Assembly (NCBI GenBank): GCA_028698585.1 | Contig: JAQVWG010000009.1 | Span: 1-64,000 of the forward strand | Reading direction: 5' to 3' | From: Clostridia bacterium | GTDB lineage: Bacteria; Bacillota; Clostridia; Christensenellales; CAG-314 | Length of the DNA: 64,000 nucleotides | Part shown: positions 30,909 to 40,112 of the stretch, piece by piece | Numbering within the stretch: the first letter of the stretch is position 1 | How the letters are laid out: each line of letters opens with the position of its first letter | Notes under the pieces: model-generated | Told to the model about the DNA's origin: nothing | Database searches by the model: none | The model's input: only the letters and a program-made list of their open reading frames with translations | Made by a program: the position numbers and the translations under genes

Positions 30909-31334
30909 TTAATTTATCCTCTTGAGCACTTCTTGAACTGTGCGCATATCGCACTGTCCTGCGTACTGACTCTTGAAGTGTTTCATAACGTAGGGAACAC
31001 TCTTATCGGGTAGACATGCAATAATGTCAGCTATCTCGTGTTCGCTTAGCATTTTGGGCAAAAATCTCTCTACACAGTTGTATTGAGCCTGAATCTTGGC
31101 CGTTCTCTCTGCGTTACCTACCTTGATATAACCATCTTTTTCCTCACTCAACTCCTTGAGCGTTTTCATCAAAATAGCAACTACGTCACTGTCATTCAGT
31201 TCCCTTTCCTGTGTGCGCAGGTTAATCTCTGCCAGTTTGACTTTATTAAGCACCACACTTAATATATCTCTTGTGTCTGTATCCTTGTCTTTGAGGGCCT
31301 GAATATTGGCCTTCTTTAATTCATCTATTAGCAT
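30909..31334 (-). CDS. yqeY: GatB/YqeY domain protein
   Basis: A 141-residue YqeY-like protein, similar to the tail domain of GatB (tRNA-dependent amidotransferase). The opening MLIDELKKANIQALKDKD, the central EKDGYIKVGNAE and the end MKHFKSQYAGQCDMRTVQEV are typical. The biochemical role of free YqeY is not settled. I chose ATG 31334 (GGAGG upstream), not an upstream ATG that would reach into the preceding gene. It follows the SMC-like gene by 16 bases, so both are likely co-transcribed. Confidence 0.88.
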   Translation of the reverse strand: MLIDELKKANIQALKDKDTDTRDILSVVLNKVKLAEINLRTQERELNDSDVVAILMKTLKELSEEKDGYIKVGNAERTAKIQAQYNCVERFLPKMLSEHEIADIIACLPDKSVPYVMKHFKSQYAGQCDMRTVQEVLKRIN

Positions 31335-31350
31335 ATTATATCCTCCTTTA

Positions 31351-33909
31351 TTAGTTACGTGTATATTGCACTGCATTGACCACATTAAGTTGATTGAACT
31401 TATATATGGCATTCTTGATTACGTCCTTCTGACTTGACATCTTATCATCAATAATCAGCCAGTTACCTGATTGTGTGTACAAAGTGGGCACCGCCAACTC
31501 CAAACAAATATAGATAAGGCATTTATCAGAAGTGGATAGTTTACTGTACTCGATTGTTAAATCCTCCTTACGAACGATAATACCATTATTATATTCAACT
31601 GAATACTGGTCAGCGACCATGGCTAGGTTAGCGTTAGCATTAACTATGAATCTGTCAATCTTATCGGTGTCTGTTACAAGGCGTCTAATCACCTTGACCT
31701 TACTATTGTCTAATTGCTTATTGCGTTCCTGTTGTATAACTAGACGCCTAATCAATTTCTCTTGCTTATCAATAGCATTATCTAACTCGGTGCTAAGTCT
31801 ACACATACGCTTGTACTCGTTCTGTGTGCGACTGTTATAGGTGCATATCTTATCTATCAGTTTATCTAGGTAGAACCTGCGCTTGTCCTCTCTATCCAAC
31901 ACCTCTAAGAGGGCGTCCGTCCATTGTGGGTAAGGATTATACTTTCGTATGTTGCCTATCAGCTTGTTCTTGATTCTGTCGCTATCCGTATTCTCTTTAG
32001 TTGCCACAACTCTCAACTTATTCGACTGCATTCTCATGGATTTGACTTGCTTATTGGCCATAGTACGAGCGCGCGAGAACTCATTAACTTTATCATTCAA
32101 CTTGTCTTTGAGCGATTGTTTCTTCTGTAACAACACGTACAGCTTGTCAATAGTATTGAGTAATGTCTCCCTTCTCTCCTCTCTCTTGCCAATAAGTATG
32201 CTAACGGGTCGTTTGGCACCCAGTTTGCTCTTAATTGTCAATAACTCCTCTCTCTCGGCTGTCAATTCAGCTATTCTCTGCTGTGGCGTCTTGTCGGCGT
32301 TGTCTATAAGCCACTTGCTATCTGCACTGTTGATACGGCATCCTAACAAGTCTACGCTATCCCCCAGTTCTATTGCCTTAAGATAGGGTAGAATGTTAAC
32401 TTTGCCCTTCTCGATAAGTTCACACTCAAATGCGTTGTAGATAAGTTTAGCATGCAAGTCGAAGTTAGTGGAGGTTGCAATAGTATTGTCGATTCGCCGT
32501 TCTGTAGCCTCTTTTCTGCCTATCAGCTGTAGCAGTTCCTCTCTTAATTGTAACAATCTGTCGTTCTTATCTGATATTGCTTCTTGATAATGTGTCAGTT
32601 GGTTTAGGGCAGTCTGCGCATTGTGGTCCAGTACCTGTTCATCCTTATCGCGATCTGTTAACACGAAGTCTCTGTAGTATGACTGCGTTTTCATCTGCGA
32701 TACTGTATTGCCTAGATTATCTATCTCGGCCTCCGTGCGCATAAGTTCGGTGCCTAATAGCTCGGTATCCTTGTCTATGCGTGTAATCTGCCCTTGCAGT
32801 TGACAAATGATGGCGTTGTACTCCTCCTTCTTGAGGTTGATTGCGCGTTGCAACACCTTCTTGGGGTCGGGAGGAATAACTTCGCCCGTACGCTCTAACA
32901 CGTGTGACAATATGGGACACTTTCGTTTGGCTTCATTGCGCAGTAATTGGTTGATATTGGCAATTTTAGCATCAGTGTCTTCTAGCGCAACATTGATTTC
33001 TAGTGAGCGCAATAATCCGTTTAACGTGCGCTGTGTAATGCCGAACTGCTTGGCTAGTGCCATCTGTTCATCTATAGATATCTCGAGTGCAACCTGTGCT
33101 TGTTTAATTAAACCTATGTCGGCGTATAAACTGTTAGTGCACTCGATAGGCTTATTTATCAGTCTATTTACATGCAGTGGATTATCAAGTAGATAATCCC
33201 TAATAATGCTATCACATCTATGGTCTATGAGGTCTGCGACATGCGTCAGTTTGTCGGCGTTGTCACGCTTGCCCATCAACAGTTTATAATCAGGCAGTAC
33301 TTGTCGCAATTTATTGACAGCAACTGCCTTAGGCAGAACTGATTGCATCTGCTCTTGTCTGGCCTCTAATTCATCTTGTAAGGCTTGTAGTCTAACTATA
33401 AGCGCACGCTTTTCTTCGATAACTGCCCGATTGCGCTCCTCTATGGCTTGATAATCCGTCTTCTTAATCTCTTCTACAACTTTATTAAAATCATCAAAAA
33501 TCTTGATATCCATCGTTTTCTCAAATCTCTCTTGTTGGTAAAAACTTACATAACATGCATCGATTACTGACTTAATGTTCCTCCCCAGTAATTTAGTGAG
33601 ATAAACTCCAATCTGGCTATCCTTAGCAATCAATTCTTCGTTAGTGCTATTGGTGTCGTATAGTAAGCAATCTATCCCCGAATCACTAACGTGCCTTTCT
33701 ATGCGATAATTACGGTTATCACAACTAAAATCTATATAGCAATCAATAGGCTCATAGAATCTGGTGGTAAGAAAAGTGGCTTGAATAATCCTTTGTAGTT
33801 TAGCAGTGCGCTTGAGCATCAAGTCATCCGTAGAACTCAATTTACCGATAGTATAGGTAAACTCCTCATTGCTGATGGTATCTACTATCTTGACTCTATG
33901 TAGTTGCAT
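31351..33909 (-). CDS. SMC/SbcC-like coiled-coil protein lacking a recognisable Walker A
   Basis: An 852-residue protein with the layout of an SMC or SbcC-type ATPase: N-terminal head, two long coiled-coil arms (about 150-430 and 520-760, rich in L, E, K, R), and a C-terminal head. The C-terminal head keeps a signature-like KLSTSDKCLIYICLELA and a Walker B-like NWLIIDD. A Q-loop-like SFYQQERFEK lies near residue 125. But the N-terminal head has IGKLSSTDDLMLKR where GxxGxGKS/T should stand, so ATP binding may be lost. It could be a structural or regulatory member. ATG 33909 follows GAGGAGGGG. It is divergent from the DnaD-like gene. Confidence 0.75.
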   Translation of the reverse strand: MQLHRVKIVDTISNEEFTYTIGKLSSTDDLMLKRTAKLQRIIQATFLTTRFYEPIDCYIDFSCDNRNYRIERHVSDSGIDCLLYDTNSTNEELIAKDSQIGVYLTKLLGRNIKSVIDACYVSFYQQERFEKTMDIKIFDDFNKVVEEIKKTDYQAIEERNRAVIEEKRALIVRLQALQDELEARQEQMQSVLPKAVAVNKLRQVLPDYKLLMGKRDNADKLTHVADLIDHRCDSIIRDYLLDNPLHVNRLINKPIECTNSLYADIGLIKQAQVALEISIDEQMALAKQFGITQRTLNGLLRSLEINVALEDTDAKIANINQLLRNEAKRKCPILSHVLERTGEVIPPDPKKVLQRAINLKKEEYNAIICQLQGQITRIDKDTELLGTELMRTEAEIDNLGNTVSQMKTQSYYRDFVLTDRDKDEQVLDHNAQTALNQLTHYQEAISDKNDRLLQLREELLQLIGRKEATERRIDNTIATSTNFDLHAKLIYNAFECELIEKGKVNILPYLKAIELGDSVDLLGCRINSADSKWLIDNADKTPQQRIAELTAEREELLTIKSKLGAKRPVSILIGKREERRETLLNTIDKLYVLLQKKQSLKDKLNDKVNEFSRARTMANKQVKSMRMQSNKLRVVATKENTDSDRIKNKLIGNIRKYNPYPQWTDALLEVLDREDKRRFYLDKLIDKICTYNSRTQNEYKRMCRLSTELDNAIDKQEKLIRRLVIQQERNKQLDNSKVKVIRRLVTDTDKIDRFIVNANANLAMVADQYSVEYNNGIIVRKEDLTIEYSKLSTSDKCLIYICLELAVPTLYTQSGNWLIIDDKMSSQKDVIKNAIYKFNQLNVVNAVQYTRN

Positions 33910-34121: not shown

Positions 34122-35558
34122 ATGCCTTTTTGCACCTACTCGCAGGATATGAACGATACCAATTTCACAGTTGTTGATAACTGGTTCATAACACAATATA
34201 TGCCTGATGCACCCATCCATTGTGTAGAGGTATATTTGTTCGGATTAGCACTGTGTAAGGAGCACCCGTCCACTAATACCGTTGAGGTCATGAGTCGTGT
34301 TCTAGGCATCAGCAGAGATGACATATTGTCTGCATATTATTACTGGGAGGAGTTGGGACTGGTCAACATATTCAACAATGCAGAGTTGGAAATAGTCTAT
34401 TTACCCATTAGGCAGAATCAAAATATTCTTAAGAAAATCAAGAGTAGCAAGTACAATAGTTTTTGCAAACAAATGCAGAATACGTTCAAACACAGAATGT
34501 TGACACCTAATGAACTCAACGAATATTTCCTGTTTTTAGAGACAACATTCTTCCAGCCCGAAGCATTGGTTCATGTTGCGCAGTACTGTCTTGACCTCAA
34601 AGGGCAAGATATATCATATCAATACATACTGACTGTGGCACGCAGTCTATCTAGTGGTGGTATTAAGACCCTAGAAGCAGTACAGGATAAACTGAATGAA
34701 CATCCTAAATATAATCAAGATTTAATGTTGATATTTAAGGCTCTTAGAGTCAAACGCAAGATAGAGTACTATGACCGTGATATGTATGATAGGTGGACTA
34801 AAGAGTTTACGTTTAACCTAGACACCATTATTAAGATTGCGTCGACGTGTAAGGTAGGTGGAATGACTAGACTTAATAGTCTGTTGGAGGACTACTATCG
34901 CAAGAATCTGTTGTCAATTAAGGAGATAGATGCCTACGCAGAGCAGAAACAGGAGTTATTAACTATCGCCAAAGATATCAACAAGGCCATGGGAATATAC
35001 TACCAGAATGTCGACCCTATAATCGAGGAATACATAACACCTTGGCTTAATAAAGGATATGACTGCCCTACTTTGCTCAAGATTGCTAAATATTGTTTTA
35101 AGAACAACATAAGAACACTGTCAGGCATGGCAACGGTTGTTGATAAGTTCTACAAGAGAGGTTTAACATCAATCGAGGCAATAAATCAATACATAGAGCA
35201 GGTGTTATATAGCGACAGCAGTATCAAGCACATTCTTGACCAACTGGGTATAGTGCGTAGTGTGAGTAGTTATGACAGACAGTGTTATAAGACTTGGACA
35301 ACGGACTGGAAAACAGACAGTAAACTGTTAGAGTACGCTACCACTTTAGCGCAGAATACCACTAACCCAATGGCATATCTCAACAAAGTGCTATCTAATT
35401 ATCACAGTAATGGTATTAATTCTGTCGATATGGCTAGGAACACGACGGTCGCCACAGATATATTACCAAGGCGCAAGCAGAGAGATTATTCAGAGAGAGA
35501 ATACAGCGACCAAGAGTTGCGAGCATTGTTCGATAATCTCGAAGATGTGGAGGTATAG
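34122..35558 (+). CDS. DnaD-family replication protein with four DnaB_2-like repeats
   Basis: A 478-residue protein. An N-terminal winged-helix region (to about residue 95, with EVMSRVLGISRDDILSAYYY) is followed by four repeats of the DnaB_2 type at about 125-190, 203-272, 283-358 and 368-440. Each has a pattern like LLxIAxxCxxxxxxTL, then Yxx(N/G)LxSIxxI. DnaD proteins help load the replicative helicase at origins and restart sites. A usual DnaD has one or two such domains, so four is unusual. The gene for a DnaC-like ATPase follows after three bases, which supports a primosomal role. Confidence 0.85.
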   Translation: MPFCTYSQDMNDTNFTVVDNWFITQYMPDAPIHCVEVYLFGLALCKEHPSTNTVEVMSRVLGISRDDILSAYYYWEELGLVNIFNNAELEIVYLPIRQNQNILKKIKSSKYNSFCKQMQNTFKHRMLTPNELNEYFLFLETTFFQPEALVHVAQYCLDLKGQDISYQYILTVARSLSSGGIKTLEAVQDKLNEHPKYNQDLMLIFKALRVKRKIEYYDRDMYDRWTKEFTFNLDTIIKIASTCKVGGMTRLNSLLEDYYRKNLLSIKEIDAYAEQKQELLTIAKDINKAMGIYYQNVDPIIEEYITPWLNKGYDCPTLLKIAKYCFKNNIRTLSGMATVVDKFYKRGLTSIEAINQYIEQVLYSDSSIKHILDQLGIVRSVSSYDRQCYKTWTTDWKTDSKLLEYATTLAQNTTNPMAYLNKVLSNYHSNGINSVDMARNTTVATDILPRRKQRDYSEREYSDQELRALFDNLEDVEV

Positions 35559-35561
35559 ACA

Positions 35562-36473
35562 ATGAACGGCAAAGTACTTTCTCAGGCTAAACGCACCGTA
35601 TTAGCAAGACGCACGCAGGCGCAACAGAGGGCAGAGGATAATTTGTATAGCTTACTTGCCCAACCAGACTTCCTTACAAACTACAATAATATTCAAGAAC
35701 AGATACTAGTAGTCGCACGTAGTTATGCCACCAAGACAGGACAACGTGAGCAACAGGCTATACTGGACAACCTTCGCATATCGCAAGAGCAGATAATATG
35801 CAATTACGGATATGATAAGGGTGCACTTACACCACAATATCACTGTGCATTATGTCAAGATACAGGTATGTATCAAGGCCAACAATGTAAATGTGTCAGT
35901 GCCGAAGTGGTTAAACTGTTATCGCAACAATCCAATATAATATATCCGCAGTACACATTCAGTGCGTCAACGGATACAGTCAATACTCTAGCATACGCTA
36001 AATCAGCCAGTTGGTGCGATAAATATCCTACAGTTACACATAAGAACATTCTTATATGCGGTATGACGGGTGTGGGCAAGACATACCTAGCCAGTTGCAT
36101 AGTCAATAAGCTGATTTCGTTACAACAAGAGGTGCTGTTCATTACTGCGTACGACCTCAATAAACAATTCCTACGCATACATCTAGCTGATATTGCGGAT
36201 AAACAGATACTGACAGAGGCAATGGAGAATATACCTGTGCTGGTAATAGATGACTTAGGGAGTGAACAGATGTACAACAACGTTACAGAAGAATACTTGT
36301 TCGCTCTGTTTAACCAACGACTATACCACAATCTATCCACCATAGTATCCACCAACTTAACGCCCAAATCTATTTTGACTAGGTACGGCGAGAGAATATT
36401 TACTCGCATAGCAGGCAAGTCCAACACCCTTATGCTGGAACTGGTTGGTAAGGACAAAAGGTTAAATAAGTAA
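35562..36473 (+). CDS. DnaC/DnaI-like helicase loader ATPase
   Basis: A 303-residue AAA+ loader. An N-terminal helicase-binding part ends in a Cys-rich zinc site (CALCQDTGMYQGQQCKC, residues 96-111), as in Bacillus DnaI. Walker A is GMTGVGKTYLA (167-177), Walker B VLVIDDLGSE, then sensor STNL and an arginine finger region RIFTRIAG. It should load the replicative helicase with the DnaD-like protein encoded just upstream. ATG follows GGAGG within the last codons of that gene. Confidence 0.9.
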   Translation: MNGKVLSQAKRTVLARRTQAQQRAEDNLYSLLAQPDFLTNYNNIQEQILVVARSYATKTGQREQQAILDNLRISQEQIICNYGYDKGALTPQYHCALCQDTGMYQGQQCKCVSAEVVKLLSQQSNIIYPQYTFSASTDTVNTLAYAKSASWCDKYPTVTHKNILICGMTGVGKTYLASCIVNKLISLQQEVLFITAYDLNKQFLRIHLADIADKQILTEAMENIPVLVIDDLGSEQMYNNVTEEYLFALFNQRLYHNLSTIVSTNLTPKSILTRYGERIFTRIAGKSNTLMLELVGKDKRLNK

Positions 36474-36999: not shown

Positions 37000-39051
37000 T
37001 TACGTACTTAATGGCAAGTCTGCTCTATTGCTATGACAGACAAGATATATCACTTGATATCTAGCTGCGATACTGTTGAGCAGGTTAATGGCTGTGCGCT
37101 GTTTAGAAGCATCCAAATTGACAAACGGGTCATCGAGGATTATCAATTGCCCGTCGCTGCCACATAAACAGTCAACCAGAGCAAGCCTAATGCAGAAGTC
37201 AACTAAATCTCTGTATCCTACCGACAGATAACTCACTTCTCTAGATTGACCGTTGTGAACGAACATGGCTTCTAACTGGTCATTGAGCATAATGGGCGAG
37301 GCATTGTCCTCTATCAAACTGAGATATTTATTGGTGTACTCCTGCATTCTGGGTAAATACATAGATTGCAGATTACTCTTGGCCTCTTTAAGATACTGCG
37401 CAGTCAGTTGAATCGTATCTAGCCTATCTTTATAACAATCAAGGGTATCCGTGCAATCTGCTATCTCTTGATAAATATCCGGTATAGTGTCAACTATTCG
37501 TTGCGCGTTAGCAATCTGCGCCTTAGTCTGCTCAAGTTTAATACGGTACTGCTGTAATTCAGTATCCTTATTCTTGCGACTACTGCGCAGTTGTTCTGCG
37601 TCAAAATCATCGGGTAGTTGAGCGGTTAGGTCGGTACTACTTATAAACTGGTCGATGATTGCATTCTGGCTAGCCATCCTGCTCTTTAATTCCATAGCCT
37701 TACCGTATATCTGTTCGAATGTCTCCACGCCTCTATCAATGTCGGTATCAGCAATGTTGACGCTCATTAAGAAGTCTTGCACTTGGGCCCTGTTATCTGT
37801 TATGCTCTGTTTAATAGCTTGCCATCTTGCACTCTGGCTATGTAAGTCGTTAGCAGTACTGTTATCTATGAGAGGTGTTAATGGGCGTATTCTGAACACA
37901 TTGCCATACATTAATAGGCCAATAGTTGTGCATAAACAGATTGCACCACACACAATTAGCACTGTGCCTAATATTGCGTTGATAGTAAATCCATATATGC
38001 TGATTAATAGTAGAGCGACTGACATAACTGCCGTAATTATGGAAATAATAATAGCGGGTTTTCTGGCTGTGCGAGCATGCAGAGTGGGTTTATCTGTACG
38101 TAAATTACTATCAGAATCTAAGTCATCTAACAGTGCTGATTGAGCCTTGATTTGATGTATACACTGCTTATTCTGTTGCAGTAAGACGTAGGTATCATCG
38201 TTGATATTATGCTGACTAACACGTTGCTCATACTCTTGTTTAGTGACTTGATACTGTGCCTGCATTTTGCGCAGACTGTCACGGTTGGCAATCTGCGTGG
38301 AGTACTTCTCTCCAAGTATCAATTGCTCATCAATGCCTATAATTTGCCCTTCTAGAGCCTCTATTTGCCCTTCTAGAGCCTGTTGCACTTGGTTTAGAGT
38401 ATTTATTAGCCCTTGCTGTTGCTCGGCAGAAAATAGCCTTCTTCGAGCAGATTGAAGTGCTTCTTGACTAGCATTGATAACACCTTTACCTCCTCGTTTC
38501 TCATATATTTGGCGCTGTTCATCCAACAGTTTGAGCGCGCTTTCGCAGTTGTTTACATCATTAGTATTCTCGATTAAGTTAGTTAGTTTAGCAGTCAAAC
38601 TATCGCTGTTTTTGACTCTTATGTCCTTCTGTGGCAGATAGCAACTGCGCTCGAAACTGTCTGCGTCTATACCAAACACTTCTAATCCCGTTTTTTCCGA
38701 GAACGCATTACTGATACTGTTGCTTTGCACATCGAACAAGGCATAGTGTCCCTCACTCTTGTTCCTAGCGTCAAAAAATCTCTCTATGCGATATTTCTTA
38801 TTATCTTGTTCAAAAACTAGACTACCACCGAACGGCTGTCCATTGAAAGGCAGATACTTGAGATATTCGTTCTTGTCCACTCCCTGCAGTCTATCACCAC
38901 TTAATCCGTAGAACATGGCCTTAATAAACATTGCCAATGTGGTCTTGCCCCATCCGTTGGGCTTACAGATAGTATTGAGTCCTTGCGTAAAGTTGAAATG
39001 CTCATCGCTTAACACGCCGAAATTGACAATATGACAACTAATCAGTCTCAT
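37000..39051 (-). CDS. YhaN-like (SbcC/Rad50-type) ATPase
   Basis: A 683-residue ABC-type DNA-repair ATPase. Walker A CKPNGWGKTTL lies at about 29-39; coiled coils run on both sides of a central pair of hydrophobic helices (about 330-385: IIISIITAVMSVALLLISIY and ILGTVLIVCGAICLCTTIGL), a feature of YhaN proteins. The C-terminal head has signature YLSVGYRDLVDFCIRLALVD and Walker B LIILDDPFVNLD. It should work with the nuclease encoded upstream (four-base ATGA overlap). Possible roles are end processing or repair near the membrane. Confidence 0.88.
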   Translation of the reverse strand: MRLISCHIVNFGVLSDEHFNFTQGLNTICKPNGWGKTTLAMFIKAMFYGLSGDRLQGVDKNEYLKYLPFNGQPFGGSLVFEQDNKKYRIERFFDARNKSEGHYALFDVQSNSISNAFSEKTGLEVFGIDADSFERSCYLPQKDIRVKNSDSLTAKLTNLIENTNDVNNCESALKLLDEQRQIYEKRGGKGVINASQEALQSARRRLFSAEQQQGLINTLNQVQQALEGQIEALEGQIIGIDEQLILGEKYSTQIANRDSLRKMQAQYQVTKQEYEQRVSQHNINDDTYVLLQQNKQCIHQIKAQSALLDDLDSDSNLRTDKPTLHARTARKPAIIISIITAVMSVALLLISIYGFTINAILGTVLIVCGAICLCTTIGLLMYGNVFRIRPLTPLIDNSTANDLHSQSARWQAIKQSITDNRAQVQDFLMSVNIADTDIDRGVETFEQIYGKAMELKSRMASQNAIIDQFISSTDLTAQLPDDFDAEQLRSSRKNKDTELQQYRIKLEQTKAQIANAQRIVDTIPDIYQEIADCTDTLDCYKDRLDTIQLTAQYLKEAKSNLQSMYLPRMQEYTNKYLSLIEDNASPIMLNDQLEAMFVHNGQSREVSYLSVGYRDLVDFCIRLALVDCLCGSDGQLIILDDPFVNLDASKQRTAINLLNSIAARYQVIYLVCHSNRADLPLST

Positions 39052-40112
39052 AATGCCTCCTTGCGACCGGACAATGCAGACAGACCCAGTTTAATAATCT
39101 CGTCCTTCTTGCGTTGGTCTAGTTGACTGCCTAGAACACACTTAATGAACATTCCTCTAAGTGATATCTCGTCCTTATAATGAGCAATATTAACTGCGTA
39201 TGATGTACAATCCTTTATCCGTCCGAAAAAGAAAGTGTCATTAACCAACTGAGTTAGGTGTGTTGTATCCACTTGGCAGTTCTCATCTACTTCGCCTGTC
39301 AGAATAACCTCTACCATATCATTAACACTTATTCCGAGTAGACTCTTGTTGATTGCATTCTCTATATCTGTAAACTTGATTAAACTACTGATATCTACAT
39401 AGATTCTGTGCAACGTGCGATAAGCAAACGGAACAAAATTGTAGTTTACACTCCTATCTATGTCGAGCAAAACGAAACCCTTATCACCACTCTCATCGAA
39501 TCCCCTGCCCTCAAGGCACCCACAATAGCACCATTGACCCCTACTGTCTATATCGCCGTGAGAATAAGAATGTTCATGTCCTAACGCTAAATAATCGATA
39601 TTCTTATTGCGCAGTAAGTCAAGGGGTATGCCATCCTCTTGTGCAGAAGCATACTTGCGCAGTTGACCGTGAGCAACAACTATGTTGATATTATTACTAT
39701 CTAACTCTAACTGTGTTAGTGCCTGTTGGCAGGACGCACAACTTATGCCGGTAATGGCTATATTGTCATACTTATAGGTAGTAAATCGGTCATTAAAAAC
39801 CACAAGGTTGGGTAAATCTAACCCTAAGAATGTGTCAGCACTCTCGTGATTGCCCATGCAGTAGAAAAAGTTAATGTTCCCATTGTGCGCAATCCTGTCG
39901 CATACATAATCTAGCGCTTTGGCCGAAGTTGTAGTCATATCGAACATATCGCCTGCTATAATAATAACATTAACACCATTTTCGTTAGCATAGTCAATTA
40001 GTCGGTCGAAGTTGTTAAGTAACTCGTTTCGCCGTCTGCGTGATTGCTCAATATCCATATTGGTGTTTAGTGCGCTGTCCAAGTGTAAATCGGCACAATG
40101 TATTGCTCTCAT
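39048..40112 (-). CDS. YhaO/SbcD-like metallophosphoesterase nuclease
   Basis: A 354-residue calcineurin-type nuclease. Metal-binding motifs are CADLHLD (7-13), IIAGDMFD, CMGNHES, VVAHGQLRKY and LGHEHSYSHGD. This matches SbcD/Mre11 exonucleases of the YhaO branch. It forms a pair with the YhaN-like ATPase, whose start overlaps its stop. Start ATG 40112 has a GGTGAG site. Confidence 0.88.
   Translation of the reverse strand: MRAIHCADLHLDSALNTNMDIEQSRRRRNELLNNFDRLIDYANENGVNVIIIAGDMFDMTTTSAKALDYVCDRIAHNGNINFFYCMGNHESADTFLGLDLPNLVVFNDRFTTYKYDNIAITGISCASCQQALTQLELDSNNINIVVAHGQLRKYASAQEDGIPLDLLRNKNIDYLALGHEHSYSHGDIDSRGQWCYCGCLEGRGFDESGDKGFVLLDIDRSVNYNFVPFAYRTLHRIYVDISSLIKFTDIENAINKSLLGISVNDMVEVILTGEVDENCQVDTTHLTQLVNDTFFFGRIKDCTSYAVNIAHYKDEISLRGMFIKCVLGSQLDQRKKDEIIKLGLSALSGRKEAL

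Follow-up and report, generated by a model that had tools for sequence, protein, structure and literature searches.

A degenerate SbcC of the Rad50 family encoded beside dnaD in Clostridia, most likely an ATP-independent structural rod

The locus and the predicted protein

The window analysed here is a stretch of 64,000 nucleotides from a Clostridia bacterium (contig JAQVWG010000009.1, positions 1 to 64,000). At 31351..33909 on its minus strand lies a gene of 852 codons plus stop (ATG at 33909, stop at 31351), with an AGGAGG Shine-Dalgarno sequence just upstream of the start; position and reading frame are as the initial annotation gave them. We refer to it as the pseudo-SbcC gene, an assignment that rests on profile membership (see below), and its own genome contains a single match to it. 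The neighbours named initially are likewise in place. The next gene downstream on the same strand is yqeY (30909..31334; PF09424, E 2.6e-17), while back to back with the pseudo-SbcC gene, on the plus strand, lie a dnaD-type gene (DnaB_2/DnaD; 34122..35558; PF07261, E 1.8e-26) and a dnaC-type (DnaC/IstB) helicase-loader gene (35562..36473; PF01695, E 5e-13). The dnaD-type gene was matched in 59 of 61 genomes and was used as the synteny anchor. Elsewhere in the window a YhaN/AAA_27-type, Rad50-like ATPase is encoded at 37000-39051 on the minus strand, with a cysteine for the first glycine of the P-loop (CKPNGWGKTT), and is preceded by a gene that is weakly SbcD/YhaO-like (39048-40112, minus strand), the only SbcD-type gene in the window. 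In the 33 other loci of the window's family (f1), tblastn at 1e-4 gave no hit for YhaN near the pseudo-SbcC gene and none for a linked sbcD with four SbcD queries.

The window protein had nothing over cut-off in Pfam or NCBIfam and no PADLOC match at E 0.1, and the SMC_N and hinge domains had no Pfam match in the window protein, L093 or L037. The prediction of both heads that had been proposed was run with AlphaFold2 (mean pLDDT 70.5, pTM 0.40); the heads were modelled confidently and the rod less so, and since the pTM was 0.40 the geometry of the rod is uncertain. All parts lie on the minus strand. The N-terminal head lobe (residues 1-135; 33505..33909; pLDDT 81-91 by 10-residue blocks) is predicted to have a Rad50/SbcC fold without a P-loop, as judged from the model and from VIA-align to Rad50 heads. 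It is followed by the long coils expected from the initial annotation, a predicted coiled-coil rod without a CxxC hook (residues 136-747; 31669..33504), taken from AlphaFold2 secondary structure of low confidence in parts, with a possible apex loop at about residues 420-424 (32638-32652). The C-terminal head lobe (residues 748-852; 31354..31668) was delimited by the model and by alignment of the family to the SbcC C-lobe.

By alignment, Walker A would be expected at residues 21-47 (33769..33849). As reported initially, no GxxxxGK[ST] is present, and a search of the rest of the protein for a missed P-loop found none. The loss is general, with Walker A at the P-loop position in 0/33 family proteins (32 relatives and the window protein) and in 9/9 intact SbcC; a local sequence error is therefore unlikely. 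One relative (L043) contains GTAAQGKS at residues 21-28, but in the alignment this stretch precedes the P-loop strand, with a lysine and a serine that the family does not conserve, and we therefore read it as a chance match. The signature-like motif that was thought to be kept in the C-terminal head proved to be degenerate (KLSTSDK; 31522..31542), with STSDK where intact SbcC has SGGEK; SGG[EQ] was found in none of 29 family proteins, nor in the window protein (0/1), but in all nine intact SbcC. The Walker B-like NWLIIDD (31444..31464) is altered, reading WLIIDDK where intact SbcC has FLFIDEG. Strict hhhhDE occurs in 5/29 family proteins and 9/9 intact SbcC, the window protein having IIDD, whereas a looser pattern of a hydrophobic strand with any two acidic residues occurs in 24/33, the window protein included. 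Since this acidic pair survives in many family proteins, the strand may retain a residual nucleotide or metal role. The Q-loop and H-loop positions are also lost in the family when aligned to SbcC, so that the pseudo-ATPase character, judged by motif, is borne out. The zinc hook (CxxC at the apex) is absent from the family (0/29; window protein 0/1) and present in the degenerate SbcC of two further families, f24 (33/33) and f14 (5/5). Only 5/9 intact SbcC have it, hence it is not universal; the four without it that have intact ATPase motifs (L172, L173, L175 and L178) are from families f15 and f29.

Descent and distribution

Within f1 no member is shorter or more diverged than the window protein, which has 852 aa where the others have at least 1016 aa. 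When used to search 61 genomes it gave four matches, and in a profile search of the genome contigs it gave none on its own where the family alignment gave 31 loci. With dnaD as the anchor, 56 loci were fetched, 33 of them from f1, and in 32 of these 33 an open frame of 1016-1246 aa runs divergently from dnaD. In the remaining genome (G008) the related gene is only weakly similar (E 7.5e-11) and lies away from dnaD. All pairs among the 32 proteins match (blastp E 1e-3), as do the window protein and 20 of the 32. The family profile matched 36 of 37 f1 genomes at E 1e-10 or better, a count that includes two genomes (G005 and G031) in which the gene is fragmented at contig ends; the single genome without a match (G036) likewise has no dnaD match. 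The suggestion of a lineage-specific component is thus upheld, and it is a conserved one. Most of the named relatives are MAGs of uncultured Clostridia, and for many of them the record titles point to animal gut samples. Three (L097, L102 and L120) are named Corallococcus sp. or Candidatus Fimimonas, which NCBI places in Myxococcota, yet carry this gut-Clostridia family, and the names look wrong. Three other members (L047, L055 and L056) have an additional acidic, proline-rich C-terminal tail and a total length of 1189-1246 aa. A short contig (L004; G016:C7) carries a second dnaD and a cut-off second pseudo-SbcC, perhaps a contaminant or a duplicate.

Profiles and models together indicate that the family descends from SbcC and not from SMC. 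In profile-profile comparison f1 matched intact SbcC over most of its length (E 2.1e-21) and the f24 pseudo-SbcC over 1012 columns (E 7e-28), and intact SbcC matched f24 (E 1.4e-35) and f14 (E 2.3e-38). The window protein alone had no significant match to the intact SbcC profile and is tied in through f1 (E 4e-19 over 816 columns). Against single sequences the f1 profile reached a probability of 52-95% for eight SbcC targets representing seven genes (L069 and L150 are one gene), and less than 6% each for SMC (0.6-5.6%), RecN, RecF (0.1%) and YhaN; among PDB sequences, Rad50 ranked first (3aux, E 1.2e-6). The structural comparison agreed, the window head aligning by VIA-align with Rad50 3qg5 at Z 18.5 (rmsd 3.6, 242 aligned), with E. 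coli SbcC 7yzo at Z 16.3 (rmsd 6.3, 279 aligned) and with 6qj1, the best SMC head among the matches listed, at Z 15.1 (rmsd 8.3, 330 aligned). For a model of a second family member the gap was smaller, with Z 16.5 for Rad50 3qg5 (rmsd 8.0, 283 aligned) and Z 14.9 for Smc5/6 8t8f (rmsd 8.5, 290 aligned), SMC heads thus trailing Rad50 heads by less than 2 Z units. The initial description as SMC-like therefore stands as far as heads of the SMC/Rad50 type are concerned, but not for SMC proper, the head being of the Rad50/SbcC type by profiles, fold and PDB search.

The genome also encodes a separate SMC, of 976 aa and with the hinge absent (L278:176-3106, G000:C4), as does a sister genus (977 aa; L279:237-3170, G003). 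PF06470 was absent from both at E up to 1 and was found at E 6e-32 in the 1192-aa SMC of G010; the heads of the hingeless SMC look intact. The absence is surprising, since B. subtilis requires dimerization through the hinge (PMC5344682). Co-variation of SMC length with the rod was considered but is not supported, as G003 combines a short SMC with a rod of full length.

The family profile was also run against 297 genomes drawn from the order and matched 33, comprising 22 from f1 and 11 others. Nine of these 11 have sbcD-sbcC, with Walker A present, divergent beside dnaD (families f15, f19, f29 and f32). The other two are a locus on a contig without a dnaD hit (G120) and a degenerate one from f14 whose contig ends nearby (G076). 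These 11 loci were chosen by SbcC profile match (G054 being L069). Sampling by dnaD instead gave sbcD-sbcC at this position in 1/23 other-family loci (L069), with L075 (f24) carrying the degenerate form, and the ancestral status of sbcD-sbcC divergent from dnaD is therefore only an inference. The divergent position, which intact sbcD-sbcC can share, is also the only link of pseudo-SbcC to dnaD. True SbcD (TIGR00619 over cut-off) was found in 1/37 f1 genomes, 4/38 f24 genomes and 9/24 genomes of other families, one of these nine (G049) being an altered f14 SbcD. In the two genomes where it was read (G011 and G326) it stands with an intact sbcC at another locus, and the pseudo-protein thus coexists there with SbcCD.

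In f24 a related gene was found in 35/38 genomes, divergent from dnaD in the 31 fetched loci with both genes readable. Its proteins (32 fetched and L075) have Walker A in 0/33 and a CPxC hook in 33/33; three (L211, L233 and L243) were trimmed past the N-terminus, and by eye their untrimmed N-termini are also without Walker A. In f14 all six genomes matched and an SbcD-like gene adjoins pseudo-SbcC in 6/6 loci; dnaD adjoins in 2/6, and the contigs of G076 and G148 end within 0.5 kb. Judged against intact SbcD, the metal-ligand motifs were changed in all five f14 SbcD read (L171 and L226-L229), the first Asp being retained; the motifs compared were DxH, GDxxD, GNHD, SH and GHxH. In the f14 SbcC the S/T of Walker A is lost in 5/5 and the lysine kept in 3/5 (GxxxxGK without S/T in L226, L227 and L228; R for K in L171), L229 being shortened there, although a later 8-mer in this protein (residue 50, after the helix) fits the Walker A pattern in the automatic count. 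The hook is kept in 5/5. The altered SbcD and degenerate SbcC of f14 perhaps form a dead Mre11-Rad50-like pair.

Degeneration may have occurred once or several times. Grouping every degenerate lineage in a single clade was rejected on a DnaD tree (AU p 0.0024), a result from one gene and a quick tree. The first DnaD tree, from which 16 family rows were omitted on account of size and one further row for being short, joined f1 to f15/f29/f9 (SH-aLRT 90). The second, from which L178 (a mis-called DnaD), 13 other long-branched or distant rows and 13 more f24 rows (to thin f24) were dropped, did not join f1 in this way and grouped the intact f19/f32 with f24/f14 (95). Against several origins, full-length profiles of f1 and f24 match each other better than f1 matches intact SbcC, hooked or hookless, and the degenerate SbcC of f1, f24 and f14 all exceed the 856-912 aa of the intact SbcC that were read.

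Selection and alternative explanations

The dN/dS was 0.079-0.194 in seven f1 pairs and 0.033-0.183 in six f24 pairs, at dS of 0.84-2.0 and so partly near saturation; one intact SbcC pair gave 0.135 and a second was saturated. The window protein has no close relative and hence no dN/dS of its own. The coil was more conserved than the heads in 376/378 pairs for f1, 103/351 for f24 and 0/36 for intact SbcC, the pairs sharing sequences and so not being independent. These counts exclude the window protein, the three members with C-terminal tails, L088 (which has no DnaD row), five f24 rows whose starts are unsure and L221 (without dnaD). At a DnaD identity of 0.7-0.8, the coil was 80% identical in f1 (six pairs) and 42% in intact SbcC (two pairs). 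Sequence conservation along a whole coil has been taken to mean that residues along the coil matter (PMC5082667). The net charge of the heads per 100 aa was -4.9 in f24, -3.4 in f1 and -0.2 in intact SbcC; the window protein is less acidic, with -1.7 in the heads and +1.6 in the coil. Since the f1 and f24 heads are more acidic than those of intact SbcC, their composition speaks for protein rather than DNA contacts.

A decaying sbcC pseudogene that is open by chance would account for the loss of the catalytic motifs together with the sbcD partner, and the window copy is both short and fast-evolving. This explanation is very improbable, however, and for the f1 family it is contradicted by the sequences: 32 of 33 f1 dnaD loci keep an open frame of at least 1016 codons, the f1 coil is as well conserved as DnaD, or better, at the identities compared, and in f24 the hook has been kept in every protein after the ATPase motifs were lost. 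Since dN/dS was 0.03-0.19 in 13 pairs, the pseudo-SbcC of f1 and f24 are, on this evidence, not decaying relics. Continued use of nucleotide by the head is also unlikely, whether by way of an atypical loop or in a heterodimer that pairs this inactive protein with an active ATPase such as YhaN or SMC. The surviving acidic pair would suit such a role, as would the YhaN-like gene about 3 kb from the pseudo-SbcC gene, and ABC proteins with one degenerate site have been described (PMC7756269). But P-loop, signature, Q-loop and H-loop have all gone, the heads are the less constrained part of the protein, and no counterpart of the YhaN-like gene was hit by tblastn at 1e-4 near the pseudo-SbcC gene in the 33 other f1 loci.

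DNA binding without ATP, as a DNA-end tether or reduced SbcCD, finds some encouragement in the hook kept in f24 and f14 and in the altered SbcD kept in f14, hook and hinge both serving to link two arms (PMC6969161). We consider this doubtful for the window's family, which has no hook, and the acidity of the f24 and f1 heads argues against it, though less so for the window protein. A subunit of an SMC-type defence system such as Lamassu (LmuB) or Wadjet (JetC) was suggested by weak PADLOC matches (LmuB E 3e-8 for an f24 protein, JetC E 7e-6 for an f1 protein). The best-matching stretches lie in the coil, however, the window protein has none, and the gene keeps a constant place next to dnaD in almost all f1 genomes, unlike a patchy defence island. 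A defence role is very improbable.

Proposed role and comparison with known systems

We propose that the window protein is a degenerate SbcC of the Rad50 family that most likely (probability about 0.7) acts as an ATP-independent structural rod. An sbcD-sbcC operon divergent from dnaD would have given rise to its family. The protein would neither bind nor hydrolyse ATP in the ABC manner and would not cut; having no ABC-type ATP cycle, it would therefore be a constitutive coiled-coil rod with small non-motor heads, serving as a tether or scaffold with contacts along the rod. The scaffold suggested in the initial annotation is thus plausible, with the motifs lost, head fold and rod kept and the rod under the strongest selection. 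As dimerization modules, hook and SMC hinge are interchangeable (PMC6969161; PMC5344682), so that a form without the hook must either dimerize in another way or be monomeric. A predicted loop at residues 526-540 of L093 is a candidate apex.

More tentatively, and with somewhat less than even confidence, we suggest that SbcCD has been turned, perhaps repeatedly at one locus, into a selected dead complex or rod: in f14 a pseudo-Mre11/pseudo-Rad50 pair that has the hook, in f24 a pseudo-Rad50 by itself, also hooked, and in f1 a rod that lacks the hook and works through its coil. If this is true, the arms of SbcCD have a structural job, independent of ATP and nuclease, that outlives the enzyme in these bacteria. 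Within a single order, intact SbcCD, pseudo-SbcDC with the hook, pseudo-SbcC with the hook and hookless pseudo-SbcC are all encoded beside dnaD. Current understanding treats Rad50 and SMC proteins as machines that run on ATP. Lost motifs, a retained protein and a coil more constrained than the heads together amount to a natural separation-of-function experiment, and the lineage makes a structural role of SbcC/Rad50 rods without ATP testable. Among the matches listed in a search of open-licence PMC papers, by titles and the starts of abstracts, there was no Walker-A-less SbcC/Rad50, inactive SbcD or hingeless SMC.

Among known systems, the YhaN-type ATPase of the same window is also Rad50-like but, unlike pseudo-SbcC, has kept CKPNGWGKTT, which resembles a P-loop, and LIILDD, which resembles Walker B; a gene with weak similarity to SbcD precedes it. 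With condensin-type SMC the window protein shares the general SMC-like architecture, and SMC heads rank among the structural matches that come next; it differs in having no PF02463 match, its genome has a separate SMC and the profiles favour SbcC. SbcC/Rad50 itself is the closest system. The f1 proteins depart from it in lacking Walker A, signature, Q-loop and H-loop, in their altered Walker B, in having neither an adjoining SbcD nor a zinc hook and in the constraint being on the rod and not on the heads. They resemble it in the head fold, in the order of N-lobe, rod and C-lobe, in a profile that matches, along most of its length, intact SbcC from the same order, and in their position beside dnaD, which is that of the sbcD-sbcC locus in four other families. 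We therefore rate the f1 proteins as a pseudo-enzyme derivative of SbcC and not as a functional SbcC.
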